A stretch of DNA of 64,000 nt from NCBI GenBank assembly GCA_016617855.1, contig JAECUM010091510.1, forward strand, positions 54,367 through 118,366. The letters are read 5' to 3'. The notes under the pieces were generated by a model. The model worked only from the letters and a program-made list of their open reading frames with translations, did no database searches and was not told the origin of the DNA. This document shows positions 1 through 44,545 of this stretch, piece by piece; position 1 is the stretch's first letter; the number at the start of each line of letters is the position of its first letter. Source of the DNA: Megalonaias nervosa. Taxonomy: Eukaryota; Mollusca; Bivalvia; Unionida; Unionidae. The translations under genes were made by a program, and so were the position numbers.

Positions 1-330
1 CAATAGGAATGGAACAGGTGGAATGGCGTCTTGGTACTTGACACTTGTAACAATGTTGCGAGTGGCTGACCTGAAAACGCGCAGCTACTCTAGGTAGGGA
101 TAAATACAATAGAGAGACAGAGACATAGATAAACACAACCATAGATTGATGCACATCAATCTATCATACCCAAATTATACAACCGACTAAAAAACAATTA
201 GGTAAGATAATAATGTTTTTGGGAGTTAAACATAAATTATACAACTGACTTACATATTTTTAGGCAAGAAAGAATAAATATCTTTTCGAGGTATATGAAA
301 GTGGCCCTGAAAAGGGCCTTTGGTTTTTTT
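1..330. repeat. P1 left terminal inverted repeat (inner part)
   Basis: Bases 1-130 are about 90% identical by eye to the reverse complement of the right end (18880-19009). After a left-only insert of about 130 bp the match resumes at 262-325, which includes TCTTTTCGAGGTATATGAAAG and the minus-strand histone-like hairpin. The left-only insert contains a perfect small hairpin, ATAGATTGAT-GCAC-ATCAATCTAT (141-164). The outermost part of the repeat lies before base 1. Confidence 0.85.
303..318 (-). terminator. histone-type 3' stem-loop after gene A (P1)
   Basis: On the minus strand this reads GGCCCT-TTTC-AGGGCC, a 6-bp stem with a 4-nt loop. It is preceded by CCAAA and followed by ACTTTC and then CTCGAAAAGATA. 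This fits the animal histone mRNA stem-loop consensus (CCAAA-GGYYYT-TTYC-ARRRCC-ACC) with a purine-rich downstream element. It lies 30 nt past the stop of gene A. The role in 3' end processing is inferred from the match. Confidence 0.8.
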
Positions 331-347
331 TTGTTAACACCATTCTC

Positions 348-581
348 TTAACATAGAGGACATCTCACTGATCTTCTTCTCTTTCTCAAACTTTGTCTAA
401 CCTCTGGACCGTAGATGAGGACTCGTTTCAGACAGCCCTGTCTCTCCACATAGCATCTTCTTTTGCAAACAGTCGTATCGGTGATCCGGATTATGGTCAA
501 AGATGATTTAACATACATGGGTAAGTCCATACGGAAAAACAACGACGATACGAAAGTAGACGATTCAACGTTTGTCCACAT
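348..581 (-). CDS. gene A, small basic left-arm protein (77 aa), function unknown
   Basis: Not recognised. The open frame extends upstream to a GTG at 620, but the first ATG is at 581 and a minus-strand TATA box (TATAAATA, 624-631) lies 43 bp before it, so 581 is the better start. The product is basic, with cysteines in the middle (VCKRRCYVERQGC), an NLS-like cluster (RQSLRKRRR) near the end and a terminal Cys. It points outward toward the element's end and ends in a histone-type hairpin. The P2 copy keeps the same C-terminal half but is frameshifted. Conservation of the second half between copies supports a real gene; no function is claimed. Confidence 0.6.
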   Translation of the reverse strand: MWTNVESSTFVSSLFFRMDLPMYVKSSLTIIRITDTTVCKRRCYVERQGCLKRVLIYGPEVRQSLRKRRRSVRCPLC

Positions 582-623
582 CTTGTGACGAGAACAGGTG
601 AAGGGAATGAAGTGAACCACGTT

Positions 624-631
624 TATTTATA
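624..631 (-). promoter_or_regulatory. TATA box of gene A
   Basis: The minus strand reads TATAAATA. It lies 43 bp upstream of the ATG at 581, and P2 keeps the same sequence next to its gene A copy. With the divergent gene B promoter it makes an intergenic control region of about 190 bp. Confidence 0.6.
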
Positions 632-739
632 GTGGAAGACCGGACCGAAACGGATTGAGATTGTTCACCAATCCCAACACGCGTTACAAAATTCAGTCAC
701 TTCGCGGAGTCTGTCTTCCAATCCGAAGAGAGCTACCTG

Positions 740-762
740 TGACGTCACATTCCCTATATAGG
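740..762 (+). promoter_or_regulatory. CRE-like site plus TATA box of gene B (P1)
   Basis: A perfect TGACGTCA palindrome (740-747) is followed 7 bp later by TATATAGG (755-762). The gene B ATG at 813 is 58 bp downstream. TGACGTCA is the known consensus of CREB/ATF factors. In P2 the site has decayed to TCACGTCA but the TATA box is kept. An ATG at 791 in the P1 leader opens an 11-codon upstream frame that overlaps the gene B start; P2 lacks it. Confidence 0.6.
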
Positions 763-812
763 TGCACTAGCGTCTGTGCGCAGTGAATCGATGCGACATT
801 GTTTTTTGAAAC

Positions 813-992
813 ATGACGGAAATTAAGAAGACAATGAATTGGGGTGCACCGGCCGTGGAGACAAGAAGCGATGGCACAGCAGCAGCTACCAAAGTTAACA
901 TAGGGCCACTTCCAGAAGAGGTCGATTTTAATTGGGATTTAGTAGATTTTCTCTCTTCTTCGCAAGAATTTATTCCGGTACCAGTGAAATGA
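813..992 (+). pseudogene. gene B, truncated copy (59 codons left)
   Basis: The N-terminal 58 residues match gene B of P2 (33768-34394), including the segment DFNWDLVDFLSS. The frame then runs into sequence that in P2 lies about 1.2 kb further on, upstream of the zinc-knuckle gene. P1 therefore lost the coiled-coil and basic C-terminal part of gene B, its 3' hairpin and the whole zinc-knuckle gene in one deletion, with the junction near 985. Confidence 0.7.
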
Positions 993-1109
993 GAGTGAAA
1001 TGAATACTGAGAGGGAAGGAACCAGCCCATTATAGATACACTGGTCTGACATAGATATATAGGGGTTCATGGCGTTGCAAATGTAATCATTTGACTTTTT
1101 GCAGTCAAG

Positions 1110-1299
1110 ATGAAACGATCGCAACATTTCGTAAAGAAAGGAGAAGAAAGTAAGAGGCACAGTAGCTGAAGTCTTGGCTCAAATTCATGCCATCGGTATT
1201 GAAGATGACATGAGTGAGCCAGAATCCAGGTCCAGAGAGTCTACACCAAGTCAAAGTCCATCACCACCAGTAAACCCCAAAAAGTATTTGCACATTTGA
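1110..1299 (+). pseudogene. gene C, small gene before polymerase, frameshifted
   Basis: The start (MKRSQHFVKKGEESKR) and later parts match the intact 68-aa gene C of P2 (35272-35478), but a deletion after codon 16 breaks the frame. The rest (acidic stretch, then a proline/serine tail) continues in another frame up to just before the polymerase ATG at 1303. A TATA-like GATATATAGG lies about 50 bp upstream. The function is unknown. Confidence 0.55.
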
Positions 1300-1302
1300 G
1301 AG

Positions 1303-4300
1303 ATGGACAAACGCTCCTCTAGAAAATTTAGAACCACAGCCTACACGTACACAGTGAAGTTTAAAGATTTCAAGTCAGACGTACCGCAGGAGAAAGCAGA
1401 AGGGTTCATCACCGATGTGTGGGATTCTTTGTTAACCACACTGAAACAGCAATGTGAAGCCAAAGAAGACGATCGTTTGAGACTTTCCATTTATCACGAC
1501 AGTTTGAAGTCCCCCGTTTGGATCGAGTTTAGGAGCCCGGCAGAACTGACACCTTCCAAAGTCATGGAGAAGATTCAACACCTACAGCAATCCAACGACA
1601 AGTTTCACATCACCGATGGAAAAGCGACACTGTCCATGACCCACGTTTCTCTTCCCCAAGGGACCGGACAACGCAAAAAGGTGTTAGTGGTAGACGACCT
1701 TCTCAGCATCAAGCGCAGCATCGTTCAAATTAACAACACTCAAGACCAGATGTGTTTAGCCCGTGCCATCGTGGTGGGACGAAAGTACGCCGTCAAGAAC
1801 GACACCACAGAATTGAAAAGAGCCAGGAAAACTATTCGACGATCGGGCCGAACCAAACAAAGAAGAGAAGCAGAACTCCTGTTACAACAAGCGGGGATAT
1901 CCAAAGTCAGACCCTGCGGCATTCCTGAAATGCAAAAATTGCAAGACGTCTTGGATGTAATCTACACCTTGAAAGTGTACCCTCAAGAAGTGCGCGGACC
2001 TCTGTTATTTCGAGACAAAGATTTCAAAGACGGAAAATACATTCATGTCTATCATCACGATGAACATTTTGATGTCATTACCAGTATCATCGGATTCCTG
2101 TCATACAGTTATTACTGTGAGAAATGTGACTATGGCTATAACAATCGAGAGCAACACAAACATTGTGGATCGAAATGTGAGGGATGTTGTCCTCTAAGCC
2201 CTGTCTGGACGAAGGACAAGAACGAGTGCATTGCTCAGCTTGTCAGTGCACTTTTGTCAGCCCTGCCTGTTACAAACAACATTTGAAGACGCAAGGTTCA
2301 CAGCAGAAATGTGCTTGTCAACTCCTGAGATTGTGCCCTACTTGTGAACAAGGCATACGCACCAATAATAGCAAGGCACACGTCTGTTCAGGAAAGAAGC
2401 GATGTCAGATTTGTCACCAAATAGTGGACTCGGAACACAAATGCTACATTCAAAAATACCATTCCAAACATGAAGAAGAAGAAGATGACCAGAAGAAAGG
2501 GAATTTCATCTTTTTCGATTTCGAATGCATGCAAGAGACCGGCATTCACATTGCTAATTTCTGCGTGGCTCACCGAGCGTGCGAGAAGTGCATCCAAAAC
2601 CCTATCTTTACTCATTGCCCTCACTGCAGCAAGATTCCTGGAGGACGTGAAAAAATCTTTCGGGGACCGAACACGCTGGCCGATTTCGCCCAATGGCTCT
2701 TAGACCCTATCGACGAGACGTGGAATCAAGAGGACATTGAACATTACGGAGATTGCCATCGCTATGCCACGGTGATGGCTTACAATTTTACGGGATACGA
2801 TGGGCAATGACTTCTCAAATACTATACGGAACAAGGCACAGAACGTCCTAAAGTGACTTTGAACTGAGCCAAAATCATTTCCATGCAAGTGGGACAAGTG
2901 CAGTTTAAACATTCGATGAGTTAGTTTTTCATGCCTTTGAGCCGAATGCCTAAAACGTTTGGAATGACAGAAATGGTCAAAAGCCTTTTTCCGCACTTTT
3001 TTAATATCGAAGCCAATCAACATGCCGTTCTATCCCATTTGCCTGAGGTTCACTGCAACGACCCCGACAACATGCACACCGAACACCGAGAAGCTTTCTA
3101 CGCTTGGTACCACACTCACGCCTCGGACCCTATCGACTTTCAAGAAGAAATGTTGAAATATTGTCGTTCCGACGTGGACATTTTACGGGGTTGCTGTGGA
3201 AAATTTCGAGAATTATTCATGGAGCATGGAGGGATCGACCCTTTGAAAGAAGCCTGCACCATTGCCAAAGCGTGTTCTTTAGTGTAACGCCAACGACTCA
3301 TGCCCGAAAACACCCTAGCTGTCGTAAGTCCTCAAACGACCAATTTTGTCCAACGTCAATACTCGGTCAATGCCCTATGCTGGTTACATTACTTGTACGA
3401 CAAGGAAGACAAATGGATCCAACATGATCGCAATGGAGGAGGCGAAGAAGCCCTCAAAAGATATTCAGTGGATGGTTGGGACTTAGAAAACCCCCAGATC
3501 ATGTACGAGTTTAACGGTTGCTTATTTCACGGATGCCCCATCTGTCACCCTCAACGTGACACTAAAAATCAGTTTTTACAACGGACCATGGAAGACTTGT
3601 ACGAGACCACTTGTCAGCGGCAAATGAAGTTAGAAGAGCAAGCATATCAAGTGGTGGAAATGTGGGAACACGAGTGGGATCAGCGATTGAAAACCGATCC
3701 CGAGCTTAAACGCATCGTGGAAAGTTACAAGCTGGTTGACCCTCTGAACCCGCGGAACAGCTTGTACGGAGGACTGACGACTGTCACCTGTTTGCTGTAC
3801 CAAGCCGTACATGTGCAAATATTGTCACTTTTCCGCAGGGCACCCGCAATTGCTGACGGAACACACCGACGTGGACAACATTCGACAATACGAAGGATTG
3901 ATCAAGTGCAAAGTCTTGCCTCCCACGGACTTGTACCATCCCGTTTTACCACATCATTGCCAAAGAAAACTGATGTTTCCCTTGTGTCGTACTTGTGCCG
4001 AAACGTGCAACCAAGACCGACCTTGTCAGCACAGCCAGGAAGAACGAGCCTTCACGGGAACGTGGGTCAGCGTGGAATTGTTCAAAGATCTGGACCTGGG
4101 ATACCAACTGTTAGATGTGTACTAAATTTACCACTTTCCCAAGACAGAAAAATGCCACTAGGGCGACAAGACTCAGAAAGGCATTTTCGCAGACTACGTG
4201 AATGCCTTTTTGAAACTGAAACAAGAAGCCAGCGGCTATCCTTCCTGGTGCCACACTCCCGAAGGCCAAAAGAAATTCAAAGAGAAATACTGGGAGCAGG

Positions 4301-5113
4301 AAGGCATCCTTTTAGACCGCGTAGAGAAAAACGAAGGAAGGCGATCGTTTGTCAAAGTGATGTTAAATTGTTTGTGGGGCAAAAAGGCACAACGACCGTG
4401 GTTACCCAAGACGGAGTATTTGACAGAACCTTCCCGCTACTTCCAGATGATTCATGACAAAACCAAATACATGAAACACGTGGACGTCCTTCGTGAGGAC
4501 TTGATCTTAGTCAATTACGAAGAAGAACTGGACTTTGTAGAAGCCGACGAATTTGGAAATGTCATCATTGTGGCTTACGTGACAGCCCATGCTCGCTTAA
4601 AACTGTACGAAGCTTTAGAACTGTTAGGAGATCGTGTGTTGTAATTTGACACGGACAGTTGCATCTACAGCGATCGTCTGGGTCAACAAGACACTAAAAT
4701 CGAAGGAGACCGTTTAGGAGCCTGGACGGAGGAGCATCGCGACGACAAGATTGTAAGTTTTGCAAGTGGCGGTCCCAAAAATTACGGCTACGAAAACCGA
4801 GACCCATAAGGAGAAGTGCACACCAATGTAAAGTGAAATGATTGACTCTCAATTATCGCACCACTCGACTGGTGAACTTTGGCGTCTTGAAAGAAGCCTT
4901 GCAGTCTGACAGGATGGAAATTTTAAAGTGACCACCCACGAACTGCACAAGATTGTACGTTTACCCATACACCAAATCGTCAGCCGACCCTTGGAAAAAG
5001 TCTATCAAATAGTGTACCAGAAGCCAGTACGGCTTCCCAATCACTTCACTTTACCGTACGGTCACGTCTATGTTGGTCAGCATATAAAAAGGAACAACGT
5101 CCAAGACCAATAG
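1303..5113 (+). pseudogene. polB: protein-primed DNA polymerase B (Polinton PolB), disrupted
   Basis: The N-terminal part (1303-2286) is open for 327 codons; the frame then shifts near 2180. A Cys/His-rich segment with several CxxC pairs follows (about 2190-2450). Exonuclease motifs are visible: FDFECMQETG (Exo I, about 2512), NFTGYDGQ (Exo II, about 2784) and YCRSDVD (Exo III, about 3158). Polymerase motif B is MLNCLWGK (about 4360) and motif C is FDTDS (4645-4659). The DxxSLYP core of motif A is missing, apparently deleted near 3800. In-frame stops at 2808, about 2866, about 2920, 3285 and 4642 and at least three frameshifts show it is dead. The family replicates linear DNA with a terminal protein primer. 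Confidence 0.9.
5083..5090 (+). promoter_or_regulatory. TATA box before the BIR-like gene
   Basis: TATAAAAA lies 63 bp upstream of the ATG at 5146, in the region where the polymerase gene ends. The form and spacing resemble the other TATA boxes in the element. Confidence 0.5.
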
Positions 5114-5145
5114 ATTATTGTCACTACAAACAGCAAGCGAGAAAG

Positions 5146-5440
5146 ATGAATCCTTTCACACAAGCGTAAGACTCAAGTCCAACGAGAAGCTCGAGTACGA
5201 TGCTGTGCCTTGCGATGGAAGGGATGCCATACGCTATGACCTCAGCGATTCAGTACGACATCATAGGAACTTTGCTACGACTGTACCTACCATGGAAAGT
5301 GATGCGAAGGAGATAAAGTCAAGTGTTTCAGTTGCGGTATGTCACTGCACGAGTGGGGGAAGAAAGATTCCGCTTACCTGGAGCATGCTCGATGTTCTCC
5401 GGATAGTCACTACCTACCTTTAGTGGGGCCTCGTCATTGA
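5146..5440 (+). pseudogene. BIR (IAP-repeat)-like gene fragment
   Basis: From 5312 one frame reads a clear BIR zinc-fold signature: KVKCFSCGMSLHEW, then EHARCSP, with C-x2-C, 16 residues, His, as in baculovirus IAP repeats. The final metal-binding Cys, expected seven residues after the His, is a Ser (codon AGT). A TGA lies just upstream in the same frame, and the ATG at 5146 is in a different frame, so the gene is broken. BIR proteins block apoptosis in insects and in several large DNA viruses. An anti-apoptotic role for the ancestral gene is inferred from the family only. Confidence 0.65.
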
Positions 5441-5451
5441 AGTGGCATACC

Positions 5452-5993
5452 ATGTCGTTTAAGAAACCAGCTGCTTGGCTAGGAGTCAAACGTTGGATAA
5501 CCCCTCGACAAGTATTTAAACCCCATTTAAAAAATAATCTTCAAACATTACCAAACGAATTGCAAGAGAAGATCTACAAGGACATTTGGCAGGGACTTGC
5601 CAGAACAAAATCTTGATGGGTGACTGTAGAACTTTTATGGCGAGAAATTCACGAGAGGAAATTGACAACAGTCAACAAACAAGTCAGATTTATCTGGATC
5701 AAGTGTGCGTTATTCCGAATATTCCGCTTTATACCATTTACATTTGAAGATCTTATTGATATTCTTGACCGTTACCCTGAATGGCAGTGGCCAGAAATTA
5801 CTCACTGCATTCGTTACTCTCGCTCTATGAGAAATGTATGACTGATATAGTCATGGATACTTTACAAGAGAACATTCGTGGTTTGCCTGTGGAGTTGAGA
5901 GAAAGCATTTACCGAGAGTTGACTAAAATACAAGTGGAACGCAAGAACAGTTTCATCCGTTACGTCACCGATCTTAAAAGCACTTGTTCCTAA
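5452..5993 (+). pseudogene. accessory gene with two LPxEL motifs, disrupted
   Basis: Not recognised. The ATG at 5452 begins 12 bp after the BIR-like frame. The reading continues through one TGA (5614) in the same frame to about 5800, then shifts frame and ends at 5993. Two similar segments are seen, LPNELQEKIYKDI and LPVELRESIYREL, about 100 residues apart, with a W-rich segment (YPEWQWPEI) between them. LP-x-EL-like starts recall F-box helices, but this is only a resemblance. Decayed coding sequence may continue to about 6250. Confidence 0.4.
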
Positions 5994-6293
5994 ACGCTAT
6001 AAGAGGATTGATTCTGCCGAAAGTGTTCCAGTGGTCAGACATTGATGAATCGCGTAAAATTTATAGATATTTGGATGCCACTCATTAAACTTACAAGGTG
6101 ATCCTAATACACAGAATTCCAGAAGACGAGTTAGAGGATTACCAAAATCTTTAACACAATGTAAACTTTGTTCAAGAGGAAACTTCTGTACGACGTGTGG
6201 TGTGTGAGTTAGTGACTAAACATTTTTGGTACTGTACTAAAATAAAACCGATGCTGTTCATAAAGTACACTTTTTACCTTACACCAATGAGGG

Positions 6294-6300
6294 TATAAAA
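6294..6300 (+). promoter_or_regulatory. TATA box of accessory gene at 6311
   Basis: GGGTATAAAAACGG is a good TATA box. It is only 17 bp before the first ATG (6311), so transcription would start downstream and the true start codon may be another one. Confidence 0.4.
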
Positions 6301-6310
6301 ACGGACTACC

Positions 6311-6991
6311 ATGCCTCGACCTTTATCATTCGTGATACAACAGATTCCGTGGAAGGAAATCAATGACAATATTTAAACGGTGTTGGATTGCGATCGCCTA
6401 TTACGAGAACTGTGTCCATTGAATTGGGGTCGACATGTAGTGTGTGTCTTAGTGGTTTGCTTTATGGGATTTCGTTTACCAGCCGATTCCTTGTGGACTC
6501 TTTACGAACAGTACCTACCACTCCAAAAAGCATGAAAGTGGTCCCTTTAAATGTACACGAAAAACTCATTCTGCTCAAAGCTTTGCACTTTCATTTCGAT
6601 ACTTCTCGACAACCTCTACAGGAAAGAAAGATTCGTTAACTTTTAGGCACTGAAGATGTGTACGATGATGTGTTTGTAGCTTGTGACTTACACCCTCACT
6701 GGCAATATGTACGTCACTGGAAATGTTGGGGTTTCGAGGCTTGGACAAAAGAAATGGCACACTATGGCCAAGATTTGTCATCCTAAAAAGGTAAAACATT
6801 CAGTGAAAAAAGTAACTTTTAAACCTGCGTTAGTGGCAGTAGCAGAAGAAGAACCACTACCTTCAGGACAGGACAGGACCGTCATTGACATCCCCGAAAG
6901 ACCATTCCGGGAAGACCCTTGTATGACTGTGCCAAGGAATGTAGAGACTCTAAGAACATTACACACTGTCCCTACGATACCCACCTCTTGA
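6311..6991 (+). pseudogene. accessory gene of unknown function, disrupted
   Basis: Not recognised. Reading from 6311 meets stops after about 21 codons and again after about 70. An open stretch in another frame covers 6388-6639. The last part (6683-6991) is open for 102 codons, with a basic middle (HPKKVKHSVKKVTFKP) and an acidic/proline tail. A hydrophobic stretch (VVCVLVVCFMGF) occurs near 6440 in the first frame. AATAAA at 7123 could be its poly(A) signal. It may be more than one gene. P2 lacks this region, so no comparison is possible. Confidence 0.35.
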
Positions 6992-7144
6992 TCACCAAAA
7001 ATGTTGTACAGAGACTTGTTTATATTCCACTTTGATCGTTTTGATGTGTCTTTTATTCATGTACTTAGCCATTTGGCTTTTATGTGTTTTTGTCATTCGT
7101 GTTGATCACTTTCAAAGATGGCAATAAACGAGTCCTGAAAAAAG

Positions 7145-7152
7145 TATAAAAA
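7145..7152 (+). promoter_or_regulatory. TATA box of packaging ATPase gene
   Basis: TATAAAAA lies 53 bp upstream of the ATG at 7205 and just after the AATAAA at 7123-7128 that could end the previous unit. Confidence 0.55.
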
Positions 7153-7204
7153 GTCTTGTCTTGTCTGTCTTCCTGTCAAACGTGACATTCTTTACACTAC
7201 TACT

Positions 7205-7935
7205 ATGGCTACTTCTACTGTCTCTGCTCCCTCTTCCTCCACAGTCAAAGTCATCGACTAAAACGTAGATCGTGCTAGTTGGGAGGCCTTGTATCTTCGC
7301 CATCCCTTTAACATGTTAACTGCTGGACCCAGAGATCCAGACAAAACCGAATTTGTCAAACGTTTGATCGAACATAAACGTCATTTGATCGATCGTCCAC
7401 CTCAACGTATCGTTTGGTGTTACAAAGAGTGGCAATCGGCGTACAGTCTCCTGCGAGAAAGTCAAGGCGATTCCATCGTGTTTGTGGAAGGCATTCCTGG
7501 CGAAGACGACGGGATCGTGTCTAACCCTAGTCAAACCCATCTGGTCATCTTTGACGACATGTTAAGAGAAGAAGAAGAAGAAATTATACTCTGGTTTACG
7601 CGCTAAGGCCATCATCGTAATGCCAGTGTCATTTACATCACTCAAAATTTGTTTTTCAACAAAGTAAAGCCCATCGCACCATCAGTCTCAATGCTCATTA
7701 CGTGGTGCTGTTTAAAAGCCCTAGATATAAATCGCAAGTGCAAGTGTTAGCCAAACAGTTAGGAACGATTTGGCTGACTCATGCGTACGACGATGCCACT
7801 CAAACCCCACAAGCCTATTTACTCGTGGATTTAAAACCCACCACTCCCGATTATTTGCGATTTCGTACCCATCTGTTTCACCACTGGTGCCAAGACGGAG
7901 GGCCTGTCGTGTACACGTCCCCTTCGTCGACTTAA
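7205..7935 (+). pseudogene. FtsK/HerA-like DNA-packaging ATPase, disrupted
   Basis: This family pumps viral DNA into capsids (A32-like ATPases of Polintons and related viruses). The P-loop region reads PFNMLTAGPRDPDKTEF: position and flanks fit a Walker A, but the usual glycines are replaced, so ATP binding would be lost. The Walker B candidate is HLVIFDDM (about 7545). A later segment (SVIYITQNLFF, about 7625) fits the sensor region. In-frame TAA codons at 7259 and 7604 and a frameshift between 7640 and 7702 break the gene. About 243 codons in total, normal for the family. Confidence 0.82.
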
Positions 7936-7969
7936 CAACAACAACAACCAAAAAAAGTCTATAAAAACC

Positions 7970-7977
7970 TTGGTCAC
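7970..7977 (+). promoter_or_regulatory. TATA box of gene at 8005
   Basis: TATAAAAA lies 35 bp upstream of the ATG at 8005, directly after the ATPase gene and a short CAA repeat. Confidence 0.5.
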
Positions 7978-8004
7978 TTTAGGTCTGTCTCACACATCGT
8001 CAAC

Positions 8005-8736
8005 ATGACGTCCCTTCAGTCTCATCTTCCCGTCAAATTGATTCGTACCTTGAACGGCATCAGTCGCGAAAAAATCCACAAATACGTGCTCGTGTCTTAG
8101 AAGTTAGTCTCAAATAAGTCTTACGATGGTTTACGGTGACAGCACGTCAATTACTGCAAAGCATAATTCACATTCCACATCAAATCAAACCTTTTTTGAG
8201 AGAAACAAAGTAGCCTTGAGGCAGCAAGTCGATCCTCGCATCGACACTCAAACCAAAAAGCACATCATTTTGAAACCTGGAAGTAGCGGTTCTCTAGGAG
8301 GTGTCATCATTCGTTCCCTCTTAAAATGGGATCCCAATGCTCCCAAAGTCCTACCCAAGAAAACAGCCACTCCTCGACGTACCCAGAAGAAAACCTCAGG
8401 TTCTTCGACTTCTCCGTTGCTGGTGATCCCTGCCAAACCCGATTTGACACGCATCTTTCTTAATTTGATTTGAAACATTGGAAACCTGCGTCTCCAAGAA
8501 CTTCTCCTCCAGTGGTGACACCTTCCTTCTCTTTAGCGGCAACAGCCGCTGCTCACAAAGTACCTGCCCCCAAAATCAAAGTCCAAGAAAGATCGGGTGT
8601 CTTAAAGAGTTTACTGGATTTGTCCAAGAAAGAACTGTCCCGACTGAATCCGTTGCGAACTCCTCTACGAAGTGTGATGCCTGCCATGAAACTGATACGA
8701 CGAGCCGACAATCAGTGGCAACGCATCCCAGTATAA
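8005..8736 (+). pseudogene. basic virion-core-like gene region, disrupted
   Basis: Not firmly recognised. The ATG at 8005 opens 31 codons (MTSLQSHLPVKLIRTLNG...) to a TAG at 8098. Basic, proline-rich coding sequence continues in other frames at 8126-8473 (KWDPNAPKVLPKKTATPRR) and 8470-8736 (IRRADNQWQRIP near the end). The composition (Lys/Arg/Pro/Ser, few acidic residues) suggests a DNA-binding internal virion protein. Position between ATPase and integrase suits a structural gene. Whether it was one gene or two is unclear. P2 lacks this region. Confidence 0.4.
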
Positions 8737-8793
8737 GAAAGACCCGTGGCAAACGATAGGGATCAGTGTTTTTGTGCTCCTGAACAACCAAAG

Positions 8794-8901
8794 ATGTCCC
8801 CTCAAAGACGTGCACACTGTCACCATCGTCGTTCTTCTGTCCAAAAAGGAAAAAGAAAAAGAAAAGGACAGTTACGTCATCCAAAAAAAACTCTTAGGTA
8901 A
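8794..8901 (+). CDS. tiny very basic protein (35 aa), core-peptide-like
   Basis: ATG at 8794 and TAA at 8899-8901. The product is highly basic, with a His/Arg start (MSPQRRAHCHHRRSS) and a KGKRKRKG run. It resembles in composition the protamine-like core peptides of adenovirus-type virions, but it is too short for family assignment. No paralogue is seen in P2, where this stretch is deleted. It could also be a fragment of a longer decayed gene. Confidence 0.35.
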   Translation: MSPQRRAHCHHRRSSVQKGKRKRKGQLRHPKKTLR

Positions 8902-9028
8902 AAACACCCACGACTGTCCGTGAAAAGACACTCTGGTTCAAATAAAAGAAGTCACCAAAGAGGAGGATTCTTTGGCGATTTTGGAAAACAAATTGTCACC
9001 TTTATGACGAAGCGATAGTCAAGAAAAG

Positions 9029-9037
9029 GATAAAAGG
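9029..9037 (+). promoter_or_regulatory. TATA-like box before gene at 9110
   Basis: GATAAAAGG lies about 80 bp before the ATG at 9110. Two more copies of GATAAAAGG lie at 9545 and 9561, before the ATG at 9614. Confidence 0.4.
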
Positions 9038-9109
9038 CCGTGTGACAAGTCATCGACGTTAGTGTATTTTTTGGTGTGTGCCGCGGAACCAACGAACCAA
9101 CCAAGAAAG

Positions 9110-9328
9110 ATGTCACCTCCCAAAAAACATCCTTCTTCTACCCCCAAAGGAAAGAAAAGGAAAGGACTGCCTTCTGGTTTAGTCAAACATTGGGACATGT
9201 TATCCGTCCTGTCCAAAGCTTCTCCACCCATGCGAACAAAAACTCATTCAAACTTCCTCCAAAGATGTCATCGATACCGTGAGCGAATGTTGTCTGAATG
9301 TCTTGAAAGGCACGATAACTTTCTCTAA
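9110..9328 (+). CDS. small basic protein (72 aa), possible N-part of the pX-like gene
   Basis: The frame opens at an ATG within AAGAAAGATGTC, with a Lys-rich start (MSPPKKHPSSTPKGKKRKG). The tail has several Cys and Arg. It ends inside a hairpin (9303-9350), after which the pX-like coding starts in another frame without an ATG. One reading is a single gene 9110-9543 broken by a frameshift or a hairpin insertion. The alternative is two small genes. No homologue was recognised. Confidence 0.4.
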   Translation: MSPPKKHPSSTPKGKKRKGLPSGLVKHWDMLSVLSKASPPMRTKTHSNFLQRCHRYRERMLSECLERHDNFL

Positions 9329-9350
9329 ACAAAGGTATCGTGCCTTTCAA
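9303..9350. repeat. perfect 15-bp inverted repeat
   Basis: Arms TTGAAAGGCACGATA (9303-9317) and TATCGTGCCTTTCAA (9336-9350) with an 18-nt loop. It lies exactly where the frame changes between the small basic gene and the pX-like segment. It does not resemble the histone-type hairpins. Confidence 0.7.
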
Positions 9351-9543
9351 AGAATGCTTAGCCAAACATCGACACGTTCTTCGCCAAATGGTCCAAAAGA
9401 AAATACCCATTCGTCAAAAGAAAAAGATGTTGGTGCAACGCGGAGGAATTGCCATTTTACCCCTGTTAGCACCCTTGCTGGGAAACATAGGAGGACCCTT
9501 GCTGAAAGAAGTACTGGGAACAATGGGAAGAATCCTGGGATGA
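9340..9543 (+). CDS. pX-like small virion protein segment (hydrophobic GG core)
   Basis: The open frame has no ATG at its beginning (GTG at 9340); the first ATGs are at 9388 and 9427. It reads a basic stretch (KKIPIRQKKKMLVQRGG), then a hydrophobic Gly-rich tail (LPLLAPLLGNIGGPLL). A basic segment followed by RGG and a hydrophobic Leu/Gly-rich segment is typical of the small core protein compared with adenovirus pX in Polintons/adintoviruses. I rely on that family knowledge and cannot test it here. Confidence 0.5.
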   Translation: MPFKECLAKHRHVLRQMVQKKIPIRQKKKMLVQRGGIAILPLLAPLLGNIGGPLLKEVLGTMGRILG

Positions 9544-9613
9544 AGATAAAAGGTCAAGAGGATAAAAGGGACCTCAGAAATCAAAAGATCTCAGACGTGA
9601 CCCTTGAAATCCA

Positions 9614-10303
9614 ATGGAAGGACGAAAACTGGCTTTAGTGCCTGATAAACGATGGATGGAATACCATCGTTGGCAAGAACAACGAACCCCGCATTTACCT
9701 CCCAATCCTCATTTGACCGAGATGTCCCAGTTACAACACGAATTGCAATTTTTGATGGATCGCAGCGATATGTCAGAAACGGACAAATCGCAATGGTACG
9801 GTCAATTGTTGCAACGACTGCAATACTTTCACCAGAAAGCTTTAGACAAAACAGCTCTACCCACTCTGAAAGATTTTAAGATCCTGATGAAAAGTTCATC
9901 ACCACCCCCAGCGGTCAAGACAGATGCAGCCCCAAGGATGTCTGAGGAAGAAGAGGCAAGAGAAGTCTTTCAAACACCGTCAGCAGTACCCATCCCTAGT
10001 AAGATTGCAGCGTCCTTGTTGACCCTTTCCCCTACACCCCAACGAGAAGAACGTAAAGCTTGGGTTAAAAAGATGATGTCCACTCCACCTTCGACAGAAG
10101 TCAAAAAGAAAGAAGGGGAAGCAGAAGTACAAAAAGAAAAGAAGACCAAAGCCATTCCAATACCGCCACCATCAACACCACCATTACCTTCGACTTCTAC
10201 TCCCGTGGCACATCGGACACGTAAAGCCGTTTCTAAACCACACTCTTTCAGAGTACCATTAGCGAAGAGTGGATCACTTATTAAAAAATGGAGAAGGTGT
10301 TAG
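9614..10303 (+). CDS. Polinton protein upstream of integrase (229 aa), intact
   Basis: Open from an ATG at 9614 to a TAG at 10301, overlapping the integrase ATG (10288) by 16 bp. The N-terminus has a conserved-looking pattern (LALVPDKRW, then DMSETDKSQWYGQLLQRLQYF) that I associate with an uncharacterised protein often next to the integrase in Polintons. The middle is acidic, and the C-terminal half is Lys/Pro/Ser-rich and probably disordered. Two GATAAAAGG boxes lie upstream. It is one of the few longer P1 frames without a stop. Function unknown. Confidence 0.6.
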   Translation: MEGRKLALVPDKRWMEYHRWQEQRTPHLPPNPHLTEMSQLQHELQFLMDRSDMSETDKSQWYGQLLQRLQYFHQKALDKTALPTLKDFKILMKSSSPPPAVKTDAAPRMSEEEEAREVFQTPSAVPIPSKIAASLLTLSPTPQREERKAWVKKMMSTPPSTEVKKKEGEAEVQKEKKTKAIPIPPPSTPPLPSTSTPVAHRTRKAVSKPHSFRVPLAKSGSLIKKWRRC

Positions 10304-11367
10304 CCAGCATTTACTATGATCCATCCCATCCTGCAGGTTACGGAGGAGTTCAGAAATTGTATCGTGCCGCCAAAACTCGACTGAAAAGTGTTCGTTCACC
10401 TCAAATGCAACGCTGGTTACAAGAACAAGCCACGTAAACCTTATGCAAACCCATTCGACGAAAATTTTCCAGAAGTCGTACCCAAGTGGAGAGTATAGAT
10501 CATCAATGGCAAGCCGATTTAGCCGATGTCTCTCATTTGGCCACCTACAATCGTGGCTACAAATATTTGTTTTGTGTCATCGACGTCTTTTCTAAATTTC
10601 CTTGGGTCATACCATTGATTTCCAAATCGAGCAGTGAGTTAGTGCGAGCCCTCAAACTGGTGTTGAAACAAAGCGGGCGTCACCCTCTTCGATGGCAAAC
10701 CGACAAAGGCACCGAATTTCTGAACCAAGCTTTCCAAAAAGAATTGAAGAAACGTGACATTCATTTTTTCACCACCGAGAATCCCGAAACCAAAACCAGC
10801 ATCTTGGAACGTTTTCAACGCACCTTGAAAGAACGCATGTGGAAATATTTTACGCATCAACACACTCTCAAGTACATCGACGTCTTGCCACAACCAATAT
10901 TTATTACCATCGGAGCATTGGACATGCCCCCCCCCCTCCAAGAAGTGACTCTCGACAACGAAGTGACCGTCTTCGAGCGCCTGTTTGTTAGGTCCCCGAC
11001 AGTGACTGTCTCCAAGAAAGGTGGAGTGTTGGCAGTAGGAGATTGGGTGCGCAATGGCAAAACCAAACGTACTTTCAACAAAGGTTACTTATCCAACTGG
11101 ACCACCGAATTGTTTCGTGTCACTGTACGTGTGCGTGGTCGTTATCCTCCCGTGTATATATTGGAAGACATGAACGGGAAAATATTAAAAGGAACTTTTT
11201 GCTTGCCCGAGTTACAACGCGGGACCAAAAAAGAAGACGACGTGTACGAGATTGAAAGCATTTTCGATGGAAGAACCCGAAAGGTGGGAAAACGACGTGT
11301 CAAAGAAGTCAAAGTAAGTTGGAAAGGATATCCTCCCAGTTTTGACTCTTGGATCGACTCTTCGTAA
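10288..11367 (+). pseudogene. int: retroviral-type integrase with C-terminal chromodomain, one stop
   Basis: The enzyme joins element ends to target DNA. The start is the ATG at 10288; one in-frame TAA (10435) interrupts the N-terminal part, and the rest is open to 11367. The DDE core is visible: WQADLADVS (first Asp), WQTDKGTEF (second Asp) and TSILERFQRTLK (Glu, 34 residues between Asp and Glu). A C-terminal domain (VGDWVRNGK) is followed by a chromodomain-like segment (DDVYEIESIF and VSWKGYPPSFDSWI), typical of Polinton integrases. About 359 codons, normal length. Apart from the stop the catalytic residues are kept. In P2 only the last 70 or so codons remain. Confidence 0.93.
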
Positions 11368-11376
11368 ATCATCGAC

Positions 11377-11384
11377 TATAAAAG
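11377..11384 (+). promoter_or_regulatory. TATA box after integrase
   Basis: TATAAAAG lies just after the integrase stop. P2 keeps it as TATAAAAA (37174). The nearest ATGs (11388 and 11397) are only 11-20 bp downstream, so this may drive the longer transcript for penton and following genes. Confidence 0.5.
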
Positions 11385-11396
11385 GAAGTGACCTTC

Positions 11397-11800
11397 ATGC
11401 CCCTGAACACAGCCTCAGTCATCGCAGGAACCACTCCTTCCCCCAGTTCTTCTCTGCAAGATCTACAAAAGCAACCCTTGTGGGTATGGTGTGGAGAACG
11501 TGTGCCTAAAACACAAATCGTCATTTTCTGTCAAATCTTTGTGGTGTATCGTGTCATTGGTGCTGCCATTGAAAATTTGAATTTGCAAGAAGAAGACAAA
11601 TAATTATGGACCATTTTACTCAGCAGTTGCATGGTTACCTTCTTCCCAATCCATCTCTGAAATATTTCTCTAACGGGAACAACAACCGGAGTCTTGCGTC
11701 CAACGTCAGTCCCCCTTCCAACAGTCACCCTAACCATCCTCTTTTAGACACTCCTCTGACTTTCAGCGACCATTCGGACACTAGAACTCTGGAATTATGA
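11397..11800 (+). pseudogene. virion-associated gene of unknown function, split (134 aa in P2)
   Basis: In P2 the same gene is one open frame (37194-37598). Here it is broken by a TAA at 11601 and a 1-bp loss soon after, giving two frames (11397-11603 and 11606-11800). The N-terminal half has a short hydrophobic stretch (IVIFCQIFVVYRV); the C-terminal half is Asn/Ser/Pro-rich. The stop overlaps the start of the penton gene in an ATGA arrangement, kept in both copies. No family recognised. Confidence 0.5.
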
Positions 11801-12667
11801 ACAACCAACTTTACTTAACGTTACCCAGTGACAGTTCCATGGATGTGTTTCCCAATAACACCTTATGATGTTACATGGCCAAATTACCTCAGGCCGTCCA
11901 ATTTAATCATGAAGCCCATTGGGAAGTGGCTTTAGTGGAAATGATTTACCCTATACAAATCAAAAACATCGTCGAAAATCAAAACACCTTTACGGTAGAA
12001 ATTCATGAGGAGCAAGTGCAACAACACTTGGATGAACGCTCCAGTGTAGGTGACTCTATGAAGTCACAAGACCCCAAAACTAAACGGACCACTTATCGGT
12101 TGAAAATTCCCTCAGGCTATTATTTTAGTGGTCAACATTTAGTGAACGCCATTGCTGACAGGTTCAATACCGTGTTTGGCAACGTCTTGGAAAAACCAGA
12201 AAAAGCGTCAAAGTTTCAGAGGACAAAGTATTGGCCATTACATTTTGTCCTGAATTGTATGACATTCTGGGTGGATACCCCAAGTTGATCAAGATTAGAA
12301 ACGAAATACCAACCGTGAACAGTAACTCGGATTTTGCGAAATATTTTCGATTCCCTGTAGAAATCAACCAAAGACTGAATTTCATCTTTGTGTTCTCCGA
12401 TGTGGCGGAGTACAACGAGGTAGGACACACCTCCGTACCGTTACTGCGTGTCATTCCTTTCAAAGAGGATTCTGCCACGAACGCTGACGAGGAAGGTGGA
12501 AACAATATTCACGTTCACCGCCAATTTATACATCCTCACTATTTACCTGTCAGTAAGTCGTATTTCGACAATGTCAACATTACTATAAAAGGAGATCTGG
12601 ACAAAATATTCCATTCACCGAAGGGAAAGTCACAGTGAAACTCCATTTTCGAAAACGATTACTCTAA
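11797..12667 (+). pseudogene. penton-like minor capsid protein, disrupted
   Basis: The N-terminus (LYLTLPSDSSMDVFPNNTL, then HEAHWEVALVEMIYP) shows the start of the single jelly-roll minor capsid protein of Polintons, which forms capsid vertices. A TGA at 11866 interrupts it; the frame shifts near 12230 and again near 12605. The end is at 12667. About 290 codons, the usual size. A TATAAAAGG inside the coding sequence (about 12581) could serve the next gene. The copy in P2 (37595-38464) differs in its lesions. Confidence 0.8.
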
Positions 12668-12680
12668 CCCTTTGTCAGTC

Positions 12681-13099: not shown

Positions 13100-13117
13100 A
13101 TCAGAGAAAGAAAGAAA

Positions 13118-14421: not shown

Positions 14422-14426
14422 AAACT

Positions 14427-15518: not shown

Positions 15519-15556
15519 TTTATTTGATGTTATTATTAGTGGTTAATTGTTTAATG

Positions 15557-15764: not shown

Positions 15765-15783
15765 ATGGTTGACTCGTCTACCT

Positions 15784-33022: not shown

Positions 33023-33278
33023 TGCCACCTGTTTCATTTCTATACAAAGTGTTATGCATTCGCGTCCGTGTCAGTGGATAGTATAGTATGTTTTATGCCT
33101 TCACGTTCGTTTCCATAGACTGATGAACATCACTCTATCCTACCCAAATTATACAACCGACTAAAAAATTTTTAGGTTAAGAGAATACTGTTTTTGTGAG
33201 TTAAACATAAGTTATACAATCGAATAAAATTTTTTTTAGGCAAAGTGATAATAAATATCTTTTCGAGGTATAGGAAGT

Positions 33279-33294
33279 GGCCCTGAAAAGGACC
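33279..33294 (-). terminator. histone-type 3' stem-loop after gene A (P2)
   Basis: The minus strand reads GGTCCT-TTTC-AGGGCC (one G-U pair), followed by CTCGAAAAGATA as in P1. It lies 12 nt after the stop of the gene A remnant. Confidence 0.75.
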
Positions 33295-33767: not shown

Positions 33768-34394
33768 ATGACTGAAACTAAGAAGACGATGAATTGTGGT
33801 GCACTGGCTTTGGAGATGAAAAGCGATGGCATAACAATGGCTACCAAAGTTAACACAGCGCTACTTCCAGAAGAGACCGATTTCAACTGGAATTTAGTAG
33901 ATTTTCTCTCTTCGCAAGAATTTGTTCCAGTACCAGTACCTTCGCCACCTTCTCATTCTTTACCATACGTCGAGGATTTTAAACAGAGACAGAAAGAAGA
34001 ATTGGAGAAATTTTTGCAGCAGCAGAAAGAGGCAGAACAAGCATTCCTCCTTGAACAGCAACAGCGAGAAGAAGAGGCAAGAAGGAAACGACAGGAAGAA
34101 GCAGTAGAGGAGAAACAAGGTCTAGGAGAGAAGGAGAACAGTGAACCTCAAACGGTAACGGTACTCTTGGACATTTTGGCAGAGTTAAGAAGTCTGAAAC
34201 AAATGTACCAGATTTCTATATTAAGACCGAAGAGAAAAAGACCTTCCCGAGTCAAACAGTCTAACCCGGTTACTACACCGGAGATACCACCCCTAGTGAT
34301 TTCTACTAAATCATTGACAGGAGCAAGTTCAGGAGTAGGTCTTGGCCGTGGCAAAGGCTTAAGGCAGTTAAAGCTAATTGCTTCTCGTTCCTGA
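33768..34394 (+). CDS. gene B, coiled-coil arm protein with acidic N-part and basic tail (208 aa), intact
   Basis: Not recognised. ATG at 33768, 58 bp after a TATA box (TATATAGG, 33710), and TGA at 34392. Residues 35-50 read ETDFNWNLVDFLSSQEF, an acidic/aromatic segment like transcription activation domains. Residues 68-115 are a Gln/Glu-rich helix, probably a coiled coil. Residues 150-165 are NLS-like (RPKRKRPSRVK), and the tail is Gly/Arg-rich. A nuclear regulatory role is my inference. A histone-type hairpin follows 31 nt after the stop. The P1 copy is truncated. Confidence 0.65.
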   Translation: MTETKKTMNCGALALEMKSDGITMATKVNTALLPEETDFNWNLVDFLSSQEFVPVPVPSPPSHSLPYVEDFKQRQKEELEKFLQQQKEAEQAFLLEQQQREEEARRKRQEEAVEEKQGLGEKENSEPQTVTVLLDILAELRSLKQMYQISILRPKRKRPSRVKQSNPVTTPEIPPLVISTKSLTGASSGVGLGRGKGLRQLKLIASRS

Positions 34395-34425: not shown

Positions 34426-34464
34426 GGTCCTTTTCAGGACAACTCACTTCTTTTGAAAAGAGAT
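34426..34464 (+). terminator. histone-type 3' stem-loop and downstream element after gene B (P2)
   Basis: GGTCCT-TTTC-AGGACA: five pairs and one mismatch at the base, preceded by CACCCAAC and followed by ACTCAC. CTTTTGAAAAGAGAT (34450-34464) is a good downstream element. Confidence 0.78.
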
Positions 34465-42436: not shown

Positions 42437-42475
42437 AGCCCTTTTCAGGGCTACCCCAATACTCTCAAAAAGACA
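42437..42475 (+). terminator. histone-type 3' stem-loop after gene Q (P2)
   Basis: AGCCCT-TTTC-AGGGCT, a perfect stem preceded by AAAAAAC and followed by ACCCCA. CTCTCAAAAAGACA (42462-42475) is the downstream element. It lies 41 nt after the stop. Confidence 0.83.
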
Positions 42476-42670
42476 TACTAATTCAATTGCCAAAACAAAT
42501 TTGTATGTTTGTATGTTTAAACAAAAAAAAAAATAGAAGTGTGTCTATAAGCACTTCGTTTCTCTGTCTTGTCAGATAATGTATGTCTGTGTTTGTAAGT
42601 AAAAAAAGGCAACGTAAGTGTTTCTTTTAGGTCCACGCGTTTGATGTGATGGTAAGTTTTGGTATCAGGG

Positions 42671-42730
42671 AATGTTTTCCTTCACGTCCGTGCTCCAGGG
42701 ATATAAAGCGCGCGTCAGTCTGGCTACCCG
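42671..42730 (+). promoter_or_regulatory. arm promoter of gene E (P2)
   Basis: TTTTCCTTCACGTCCGTGCT, then TATAAAGC (42702) and GTCAGTCTGGCTACCC. The distance between TATA and CAGTC is 5 bp shorter than in P3. Confidence 0.68.
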
Positions 42731-42756
42731 TCGTTGACCTGTTAACTTGTAAGAAG

Positions 42757-43314
42757 ATGTGTAACAGAATAGCCAAATTGTTGGAGCTGCAAATGCACCT
42801 GGAGTATGCCAGGCGCATCCTGGATGAGCTGGCTATGGAGGCCATTTCAGAAGCAACCCAGTTGGAAGAAGAGGAGGAAAATAAGAAGAAAGATGAGGAG
42901 AAGGAAAAGAAGCGACGGATCCTGCCTCACCTCATACTAAGACCTCTGTGTGAGGTCAGGCCTGAGGTGAGGACACCAACGTCTCAACAGCCACCACTTC
43001 CACAACAAAGACAGCCACAGCCTCTGCCACCAGTACCAAGAGCCGCTGTCCCCCAGAGAGAAACCTGGGAGGAGGAGGCATGGGAGGAATTGGAAAGACA
43101 GAGGCAAGAGTGGGAGCCTCGGCGTCAGCATCATCATCTCAGGGTGTGGAATAGAAGAAGGAGGGAACAAGTGTTCACTATCCCTCAAACTGAGGACTGG
43201 GATAGTGAAGCCAATCAACCTCCCTCTGCGCTCCCAACCACACGCATAAATTGGGAGCAGGACTGGAGCCGGCGATGCGTGTGTGGTGCCCGCCCTGGGA
43301 GATGTCATCATTAA
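42757..43314 (+). CDS. gene E, acidic/tryptophan-motif arm protein (185 aa), intact
   Basis: Not recognised. ATG at 42757, 55 bp after the TATA box; TAA at 43312. Layout: Leu-rich helix (residues 5-30), K/E-rich coil (35-55), Pro/Gln-rich stretch (75-100), two repeats of the form PQ-x-E-x-W-acidic (PQRETWEEEA and PQTEDWDSEA), and a Cys-rich end (NWEQDWSRRCVCGARPGRC). Both W-acidic repeats and the Cys end are kept in all three element copies, which argues for function. Tryptophan in an acidic setting often binds partner proteins, but no role is claimed. A histone-type hairpin follows 28 nt after the stop. Confidence 0.68.
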   Translation: MCNRIAKLLELQMHLEYARRILDELAMEAISEATQLEEEEENKKKDEEKEKKRRILPHLILRPLCEVRPEVRTPTSQQPPLPQQRQPQPLPPVPRAAVPQRETWEEEAWEELERQRQEWEPRRQHHHLRVWNRRRREQVFTIPQTEDWDSEANQPPSALPTTRINWEQDWSRRCVCGARPGRCHH

Positions 43315-43342
43315 CCAGGTGCATCTGGATTTCTAAAAAAAC

Positions 43343-43384
43343 AGCCCTTCTCAGGGCTAACCAGATCTCTAGAAAAGAGAGACT
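43343..43384 (+). terminator. histone-type 3' stem-loop and downstream element after gene E (P2)
   Basis: AGCCCT-TCTC-AGGGCT, a perfect stem preceded by AAAAAAAC and followed by AACCA. CTCTAGAAAAGAGAGACT (43367-43384) starts 9 nt past the stem. Confidence 0.85.
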
Positions 43385-43447
43385 ATTCAATTTGTCAATT
43401 TGTGTGAATGTGAAGTTGTGTGACTATAAACACTCACTTCTTTACTC

Positions 43448-43448
<1 letters not shown>

Positions 43449-43506
<58 letters not shown>

Positions 43507-43985
43507 GTTCGCATTCGTTTGTGAGAATAGTATAGTGTGTTTTATGCATTCTCATTCATTTGTGAGGATAGTATAGTGTGTATGTTTATGCATTCGCTTT
43601 CGTTTGTGTGGATAGTAAATATGGTGTGTTTTATGCTTTCTCGTCCGTTTGTGAGGATAGTAAATATGGTGTGTTTTATGCTTTCTCGTTCGTTCGTGTG
43701 GATAGTATATATGGTGTGTTTTATGCTTTCTCGTCCGTTTGTGAGGATACTAAATATGGTGTGTTTTATGCTTTCTCGTTCGTTGGTGTGGATAGTATAT
43801 ACTGTGTGTTTTATGCTTTCGCGTCCGTTTGTGTGGATAGTAAATATGGTGTGTTTTATGCATTCTTATTCGTTTGTGAGGATAGTATAGTGTGTATGTT
43901 TTATGCATTCGAGTTCGTTGGTGTGGATAGTAAATATGGTGTGTTTTATGCATTCTCGTTCGTGTGTGTGGATAGTATATAATAT
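43449..43985 (+). repeat. (TG)n plus 45-bp tandem array upstream of gene L (P2)
   Basis: After a TG run (43449-43503), about ten units with exact 45-bp spacing (for example CTTTCTCG at 43636, 43681 and 43726). The unit carries TTCGCGTCCGT or TTCTCGTCCGT. Open frames of 117 and 134 codons here are by-products of the 15-codon repeat. Confidence 0.88.
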
Positions 43986-44003
43986 GTGAAGTGAGTGTAA
44001 GGG

Positions 44004-44055
44004 ATCTTTTCCTTCACGTCCGTGCTCCACGGACATAAAGCAGAGCGCTCGTCAT
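44004..44055 (+). promoter_or_regulatory. arm promoter of gene L (P2)
   Basis: TTTTCCTTCACGTCCGTGCT, then CATAAAGC (44034). The CAGTCTGGC part is changed (GTCATTCGCGCC). Confidence 0.58.
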
Positions 44056-44081
44056 TCGCGCCATTCTACACAGAATACAAC

Positions 44082-44477
44082 ATGGCGAGCAACATGGAAA
44101 GAATCATTAGATTGCAGGAGGTAGTGGACACGTTAGGAATGGTGGAGGAGATGCTAGTCAGAATGCAGTTTGGGGCTTATAGTCCCCATAGACTAAGCAT
44201 GGAAATTAATAATTTATAGAGAAGTAAGGACATATTAAATGAAATGATTAGGATTGAAAAGGACGAAAAGGAAGATTTAGAAGATAAAAGGAGAATGAGT
44301 GAGTGAAACGAAAAGATAGAAAAGGAAGAAGAAAATGAAAAACGGAAGAAGGAGGAGAAAGGGAAGAAGAAGGAAAAAAAGGAGGAGAAGGAAAAGAACG
44401 AGAAGAAGACAAAAAGTGGAGGTCAAAAAAGTGTAGGAGAGAAAATAAGAAGTTGGTGGAGGAAAAGAAGAACTTAG
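44082..44477 (+). pseudogene. gene L (P2), two in-frame stops
   Basis: ATG at 44082; a continuous 131-codon frame apart from a TAG (44217) and a TGA (44304). N-terminal helical part (EVVDTLGMVEEMLVRMQFG), long Lys/Glu-rich coil, end IRSWWRKRRT. It is the last gene before the right terminal repeat and is followed by its hairpin after 30 nt. Confidence 0.58.
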
Positions 44478-44507
44478 AAGAAGACAAAGAAGAAGAAGAA
44501 ATCCAAA

Positions 44508-44545
44508 GGCCCTCTTCAGGGCCACTTTCATATGCCACGAAAAGA
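44508..44545 (+). terminator. histone-type 3' stem-loop after gene L (P2)
   Basis: GGCCCT-CTTC-AGGGCC, a perfect stem preceded by TCCAAA and followed by ACTTTC, with CACGAAAAGATA downstream. It is the near mirror image of the left-arm hairpin of gene A, so it belongs to the extended inverted repeat. Confidence 0.82.

Follow-up and report, generated by a model that had tools for sequence, protein, structure and literature searches.

Histone-type 3′ end signals on arm genes of a Polinton family in Megalonaias nervosa

Arm genes and hairpins in the window

The window analysed here is a stretch of 64,000 nucleotides (nt) from the bivalve Megalonaias nervosa (assembly GCA_016617855.1, contig JAECUM010091510.1, positions 54,367 to 118,366 of the forward strand), carrying three copies (A, B and C) of a Polinton, a virus-like element, in which five arm genes (L1, L2, R1, R2 and R3) are followed by hairpins resembling the 3′ ends of replication-dependent histone mRNAs. 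Such hairpins had been proposed in an initial annotation made from the letters alone, which counted eleven of them while listing twelve; a 16-nt hairpin is present in all 12 cases, on the coding strand of the arm genes. The window was searched with the Rfam Histone3 covariance model (RF00032; gathering cut-off 34 bits), with reporting up to E 5. The elements, hairpins, downstream purine blocks and the open reading frames (ORFs; lengths in amino acids, aa) next to them are as follows.

1..19007: element A, Polinton, nearly whole, delimited by setting both ends side by side and by homologies
1-100 and 18908-19007: terminal inverted repeats of element A, ~100 nt, by eye; the left repeat touches the window edge
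about 23280-25660: element B, right arm only of a second Polinton
about 33000-44740: element C, third Polinton, rearranged
303..318 (-): L1 hairpin, element A, GGCCCT TTTC AGGGCC; Histone3 278-323(-), 40.0 bits, E 2.8e-8; stop of a 77-aa ORF 29 nt upstream
281..286 (-): L1 block AAAAGA, element A
33279..33294 (-): L1 hairpin, element C, GGTCCT TTTC AGGGCC; Histone3 hit from 33253(-), 29.6 bits, E 2.2e-4
33258..33263 (-): L1 block AAAAGA, element C
33768..34394 (+): L2 arm gene, 208-aa open frame; a Pfam scan to E 1 gave no family
34426..34441 (+): L2 hairpin, element C, GGTCCT TTTC AGGACA, first pair broken; Histone3 hit from 34421, 25.1 bits, E 0.0097; 31 nt past the stop of the 208-aa ORF
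34456..34462 (+): L2 block AAAAGAG, element C
16188..16203 (+): R1 hairpin, element A, AGCCCT TTTC AGGGCT; Histone3 hit from 16183, 28.2 bits, E 7.2e-4; block decayed to GAAAGGA
23472..23487 (+): R1 hairpin, element B, degraded, CTCCCT TTTC AGGGCT; GGAAGGA in place of AAAAGA
42437..42452 (+): R1 hairpin, element C, AGCCCT TTTC AGGGCT; Histone3 hit from 42432, 28.4 bits, E 5.8e-4
42468..42473 (+): R1 block AAAAGA, element C
17119..17134 (+): R2 hairpin, element A, AGCCCT TCTC AGGGTT; by sequence pattern
17149..17155 (+): R2 block AAAAGAG, element A
24358..24373 (+): R2 hairpin, element B, AGCCAT TCTC AGGGCT, one mismatch; by sequence pattern
24388..24394 (+): R2 block AAAAGAG, element B
42649..43314 (+): R2 arm gene, element C, 221-aa open frame; Pfam gave no family over its cut-off
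43343..43358 (+): R2 hairpin, element C, AGCCCT TCTC AGGGCT; Histone3 hit from 43338, 22.6 bits, E 0.089; 28 nt past the stop of the 221-aa ORF
43373..43379 (+): R2 block AAAAGAG, element C
18829..18844 (+): R3 hairpin, element A, GGCTCT TTTC AAGGCC, one mismatch; Histone3 hit from 18824, 21.8 bits, E 0.17
18861..18866 (+): R3 block AAAAGA, element A
25388..25403 (+): R3 hairpin, element B, GGCCAT TTTC AGGGCC, one mismatch; Histone3 hit from 25383, 19.8 bits, E 1
25418..25423 (+): R3 block AAAAGA, element B
44508..44523 (+): R3 hairpin, element C, GGCCCT CTTC AGGGCC; Histone3 44503-44548(+), 35.6 bits, E 1.2e-6
44540..44545 (+): R3 block AAAAGA, element C

The model search, which the initial annotation had set as its own check, reported nine of the 12 hairpins (E 2.8e-8 to 1), two above the gathering cut-off and seven below, and gave no report up to E 5 for those at 17119, 23472 and 24358. 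The histone type of the hairpins is thus borne out, the claim that they are exact is not: seven stems are fully paired when G-U is allowed (318, 33294, 16188, 42437, 43343, 44508 and 17119), four have one mismatch (18829, 25388, 24358 and 34426) and one has two (23472). The second stem base is G in 11 of the 12, and the first pair is G-C in the L1, L2 and R3 types and A-U in R1 and R2 (unpaired in 23472); a G-C first pair and G as the second stem base are important for the histone stem-loop-binding protein SLBP. The CCAAA-like left flank described at first does not hold for the R1 and R2 sites, which have AAAAC or AAAAG. A purine block after most hairpins does, AAAAGA following 10 of the 12 (all except 16188 and 23472), at a measured 14-16 nt past the stem where 9-15 nt had been given. 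The L2 hairpin is missing in element A, apparently by deletion (by eye). Both L1 and R3 sites lie near the terminal inverted repeats and have common downstream sequence, so that these two of the five site types are not independent.

A pattern combining hairpin and purine block, composed after the sites were known, found 10 sites in the window, all in arms and on the right strand, and none in 200 first-order Markov sequences of equal length; without the block, the hairpin pattern gave a Markov mean of 0.04 and a maximum of 1. The polyadenylation signals AATAAA and ATTAAA are absent from the 300 nt after 10 of the 12 hairpins and present after 34426 and 23472. Pfam histone domains are absent from the L1, L2 and R2 products, the three that were scanned.

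Upstream, a TATA-like box occurs within 900 nt of nine hairpins and a CAGTC start-like motif precedes eight (counts made without a control). By eye, right-arm genes have in common a TATA-like box with a CAGTCTGGC(T/C)A-like motif after it (15700-15800, 16490-16540, 17830-17900 and 42690-42740), which suggests a common promoter module. Because the TATA-like box falls inside the 221-aa R2 frame, the true start of that gene probably lies further downstream.

Polinton identity of the elements

The core genes of element A are broken by stops and were read in pieces. An integrase, a polymerase and one polyadenylation signal were placed as follows.

10438..11367 (+): integrase, element A; rve E 8.1e-13; chromodomain E 3.2e-5, slightly below its cut-off
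1303..5062 (+): type B DNA polymerase, element A, interrupted by stops and frameshifts; tblastn with polymerase pieces of L009, a Polinton-like contig described below
15557..15562 (+): AATAAA after the protease-like gene of element A, 38 nt past its stop

The polymerase piece at 3300-4454 has 60% identity to P0001, a JGI protein carrying PF03175, whose relatives include proteins named from oysters, mussels, echinoderms, corals and insects (among 120 of 1,448 relatives). Three further stretches (7304-7914, 13121-14406 and 15027-15395) match ORFs of the Polinton-like contigs L009 and L010 by tblastn; by known motifs we take them to be ATPase-like, capsid-candidate and protease-like, respectively, and Pfam gave no match for any of them. 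The polymerase of Polinton kind, the retrovirus-type integrase and the terminal inverted repeats of element A support an assignment to Polinton/Maverick (adintovirus-like) elements. The likeness to known Polintons/Mavericks and adintoviruses extends to the further core homologies and a length of about 19 kb; the elements in the window add histone-type 3′ ends on arm genes, of which the titles and abstract openings searched in the open-access literature gave no description.

Other features of the elements were also recorded. By eye, the left end of element C (33000-33120) has sequence resembling a right end, oriented as it is near 44680-44740, which indicates that this copy is rearranged. In element C, the protease-like gene has no AATAAA in the 200 nt past its stop. 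A left-arm zinc-knuckle gene (34665-35129, -; zf-CCHC E 2e-14 in two stretches) has no listed hairpin after it and AATAAA ~150 nt past its stop. A long GA-rich simple repeat (22000-23290) runs straight into the R1 gene of element B, and a tRNA-Pro-like repeat occurs in two inverted copies (18594-18802 and 51221-51429), the first of which sits between the R3 coding region and the R3 hairpin of element A.

Recurrence through the genome

The M. nervosa assembly comprises 2.19 Gb in 54,709 contigs. Histone3 scored 75 places out of 423,121 first-look candidates, 66 of them over the cut-off, and all 75 were fetched with about 2.5 kb each. No histone frame was found in any of the fetched stretches (tblastn, E up to 1e-4). 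Similarity to the window was found in 72 of the 75, two of which (L131 and L161) match only parts outside the elements, leaving 70 that are element-like; L115, L118 and L162 have no such similarity, although by eye L162 ends in R2-like sequence. In seven stretches upstream of R3, Histone3 gave five matches of 23.2-28.9 bits, none above the cut-off.

When hairpin, right flank and AAAAGA were combined into one exact pattern, it matched the assembly 1689 times on the forward and 1780 times on the reverse strand (3,469 in total), and its reversed control matched neither strand. Among the matches listed, outward-facing pairs about 19.5-19.8 kb apart occur on contigs C515 and C611, as expected of L1 and R3 in one element, and C552 holds two matches at a distance of 1.1 kb, as for L1 and L2.

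The arrangement around the hairpins also recurs. AAA[AG]A starts 12-17 nt past the stem in 78 of the 80 distinct hairpins of the 75 loci, and at exactly 15 nt in 52. Within the 120 nt upstream, the end of a 60-aa or longer ORF lies on the same strand for 40 of 81 hairpins and on the opposite strand for six, compared with 10.8% at random positions; 29 of those 40 same-strand ORFs have a stop-to-hairpin distance of 24-39 nt.

Constraint on the hairpin

Since the 75 loci were chosen by the model, conservation of the hairpins that retrieved them is biased, and pairs were counted only in hairpins that did not serve retrieval. All six pairs are kept in 23 of 33 such rows: 11 of 13 for L1, 4 of 10 for L2, 5 of 5 for R1 and 3 of 5 for R2. 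The L1 rows L098 and L140 were excluded as retrieval hits, and L135, L140 and L159 (L2) and L143 and L147 (L1) were dropped for short flanks. L105 and L106, identical in sequence on two contigs, each contribute one of the 10 L2 rows; duplicated R1/R2 rows (L119 = L192 and L137 = L194) were counted once, with R1 mapped in four and R2 in four of seven stretches. Across the 12 full-length L1 rows of this kind, the mean majority-base frequency is 0.964 in the hairpin, 0.933 in the five bases before it and 0.69-0.76 further out, in an ungapped comparison in which spacer-length differences lower the flank values.

Covariation was assessed in 27 sequences, hand-picked as distinct variants, against 500 shuffles. 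Paired cells (92.0% against 89.2%), the covariation score (0.250 against 0.192) and cells changed on both sides (8 against 2.9) all exceeded the shuffles (0 of 500 in each case). The signal stems from the first pair, which is G-C in 18 sequences, A-U in seven and other in two; as its change tracks gene type, a small number of events recurs across many rows.

Polinton-like contigs outside the M. nervosa assembly

Among 80 loci returned from prokaryote assemblies, six carry clear Polinton-like polymerases and were taken for contaminants. One of these, L009 (8.9 kb, filed under a Bacteroidia metagenome-assembled genome), encodes an integrase and a polymerase that is 40% identical to P0001 in its best segment. 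Near the contig end lies a short gene of the C2H2 zinc-finger type, and 28 nt past its stop come GGCCCT TATC AGGGCC ACCCC and AAAAAAGAGA; Histone3 scores this hairpin at 35.8 bits (E 7.6e-7), above the cut-off. L009 also has a TATA-binding-protein-like gene (7192-7755, -; Pfam TBP E 1.9e-27), for which tblastn found no counterpart in the window.

In viral contigs, two patterns of hairpin plus block had no match. A hairpin-only pattern found eight places there, rejected as bacterial-terminator look-alikes (GAAA loop, mostly with a T-run on the other strand). Searches with the window polymerase, P0001 and the polymerase alignment A1 found no relatives in these contigs, so that this collection is no test of other Polintons. 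Phage and plasmid records gave four and three matches to P0001, respectively, distant polymerases only.

Proposed 3′ end formation by host SLBP and U7

We consider it likely, judging from the sequence signals, that the arm-gene mRNAs of this Polinton family are cut by the host SLBP/U7 machinery and carry no poly(A) tail. In a mouse H2a pre-mRNA, U7 base-pairs through its CUCUUU with the purine core AAAGAG of the histone downstream element (HDE), and CPSF73 cuts between the hairpin and the HDE (PMC7026596); the AAAAGA(G) block of the arm genes is of the right kind for such pairing. The arm transcript would fold its hairpin of six base pairs and a 4-nt loop shortly after the stop codon, host SLBP would bind this hairpin, and the U7 small nuclear ribonucleoprotein would pair with the AAAAGA(G) block about 15 nt beyond it. 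CPSF73 would then cut between hairpin and block, leaving a mature mRNA that ends a few nt past the hairpin. The spacing of the block resembles that in histone genes. Processing of this kind would depend on SLBP and U7 of the host, and the arm proteins would be made mainly when SLBP is abundant. SLBP regulation limits histone-type mRNAs to S phase, for which reason expression of the arm genes may be limited to S phase as well.

The arm-gene ends and replication-dependent histone 3′ ends (RF00032 with HDE and U7) are alike in the 6-bp stem, the 4-nt loop, the A-rich left flank, the ACC-type right flank, AAAAGA(G) about 15 nt on and the position of the hairpin shortly after the stop. They differ in that the genes in the window are non-histone genes in a virus-like element, that the first pair of R1 and R2 is A-U and that the block after the L1 and R3 hairpins of the window is AAAAGAT. 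Both the Polinton identity and the pair of SLBP-type hairpin and U7-type purine core, as read in the initial annotation, are supported by the sequence, the genome-wide recurrence, the retained pairing and the instance in L009.

Several results weigh against processing by host SLBP and U7. The A-U first pair of R1 and R2 is not that of the histone consensus, and the L2 hairpins are often imperfect, as their pair count shows; across eight L2 rows, the hairpin (0.93) does not differ from its flanks (0.86-0.93), the block reaching 0.97. The ungapped treatment of the L1 flanks counts here too. In the 27-sequence alignment, neither the number of pairs with changes on both sides (299 of 500) nor that of pair types (472 of 500) rose above the shuffles. 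ORFs of at least 80 aa give a slight strand contrast only (6 against 2 of 81; random 4.3%). The initial annotation had proposed a search of all Polinton/adintovirus genomes for the same hairpins, and beyond L009 the other five of the six Polinton-like contigs have no Histone3 match, though some of them may be without arms. Host U7 was not found by Rfam family search, which was silent in every control genome too. No hairpin was seen in the 701 bases fetched at the best, truncated host H4 match.

That H4 match (L199, C1671:10246-10506) is one of seven in the assembly, from which the main histone repeats may be absent. A pattern search for U7 in the same assembly gave 73+87 matches against 127+115 in the control, and none of 20 loci cut out was convincingly U7-like.

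Alternative explanations

One alternative, which we find improbable, is that a single host histone 3′ end was captured, that homogenisation of the terminal repeats and duplication of arm genes spread it, and that it is no longer used. It draws on the common downstream sequence of the L1 and R3 sites near the terminal inverted repeats, on the imperfect stems in many copies and on a TATA/CAGTCTGG-like promoter common to R1, R2 and R3 (by eye), which makes the arms look like paralogues. A signal no longer in use does not sit well with six pairs kept in rows not picked by that hairpin, a first pair changed from G-C to A-U on both sides, a block held at near-fixed distance in diverged genes, or the same signal beside a different gene in a Polinton as distant as L009.

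The hairpin might instead be real in RNA and serve stability, export or decay only, most transcripts being polyadenylated further downstream. Back-up poly(A) sites are present in some histone genes as well, and a signal does follow the hairpins at 34426 and 23472 within 300 nt; the other 10 have neither AATAAA nor ATTAAA in that interval, and the U7-type block, needless for a purely stabilising hairpin, has been kept. We give this explanation, too, little chance of being right.

It is very unlikely that the sites are DNA-level elements for replication, packaging or integrase, palindromic by coincidence. Subterminal, outward-facing L1 and R3 sites would suit such a role, which the interior sites after R1, R2 and L2 would not; moreover, the flanks, loop and purine block are asymmetric and the sites lie on the sense strand of ORFs. 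By eye, among about 101 of the 3,469 pattern matches, seven stems differ only by T for C on the 5′ side (a G-U pair in RNA, which is tolerated), one stem is changed on both sides, and none has the mirror change of a 3′-side G to A alone (a C-A mismatch). Wobble without the mirror mismatch among these stems is unexpected for a DNA site.

Chance or bacterial-terminator look-alikes, of which the eight terminator-like places in viral contigs are a reminder, have next to no probability and are judged refuted, since with flanks and block the count is zero in viral contigs (two patterns), zero in 200 Markov windows and 3,469 against 0 in the mussel's own genome.

Implications

Histone-type 3′ ends are, to our knowledge and in the textbook view, nearly private to replication-dependent histones. 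No description of them in Polintons was found in the open-access literature, judged on titles and abstract openings, in agreement with the initial annotation, which knew of none; on the sequence evidence, the arm genes would represent a new use of a known signal. A further comparison is with adomaviruses and tailtomaviruses, which carry 'Histoid' genes encoding a histone-like protein (PMC11071296). Like the present elements, these are animal DNA viruses with a link to histones, one of them with adintovirus-like virion genes (PMC11071296). The difference is that they encode a histone-like protein, and that text contains none of the terms stem-loop, polyadenyl and SLBP (PMC11071296).

If SLBP/U7 processing of the arm genes is correct, it would be a new route to mRNAs without poly(A) signals, used systematically on several non-histone genes of a virus-like element; it would tie expression of the element to host DNA synthesis, and the copies would make available a great number of naturally occurring variants of SLBP/U7 substrates. 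More broadly, and with about an even chance of being right, an old and widespread branch of animal Polintons/adintoviruses may have put its arm genes, which are probably regulatory, under host SLBP/U7 control, so that viral mRNAs would be tail-less and mainly available when histone mRNAs are made, and the integrated copies, numbering thousands, may offer more histone-type hairpins than the histone genes do and compete for SLBP and U7.

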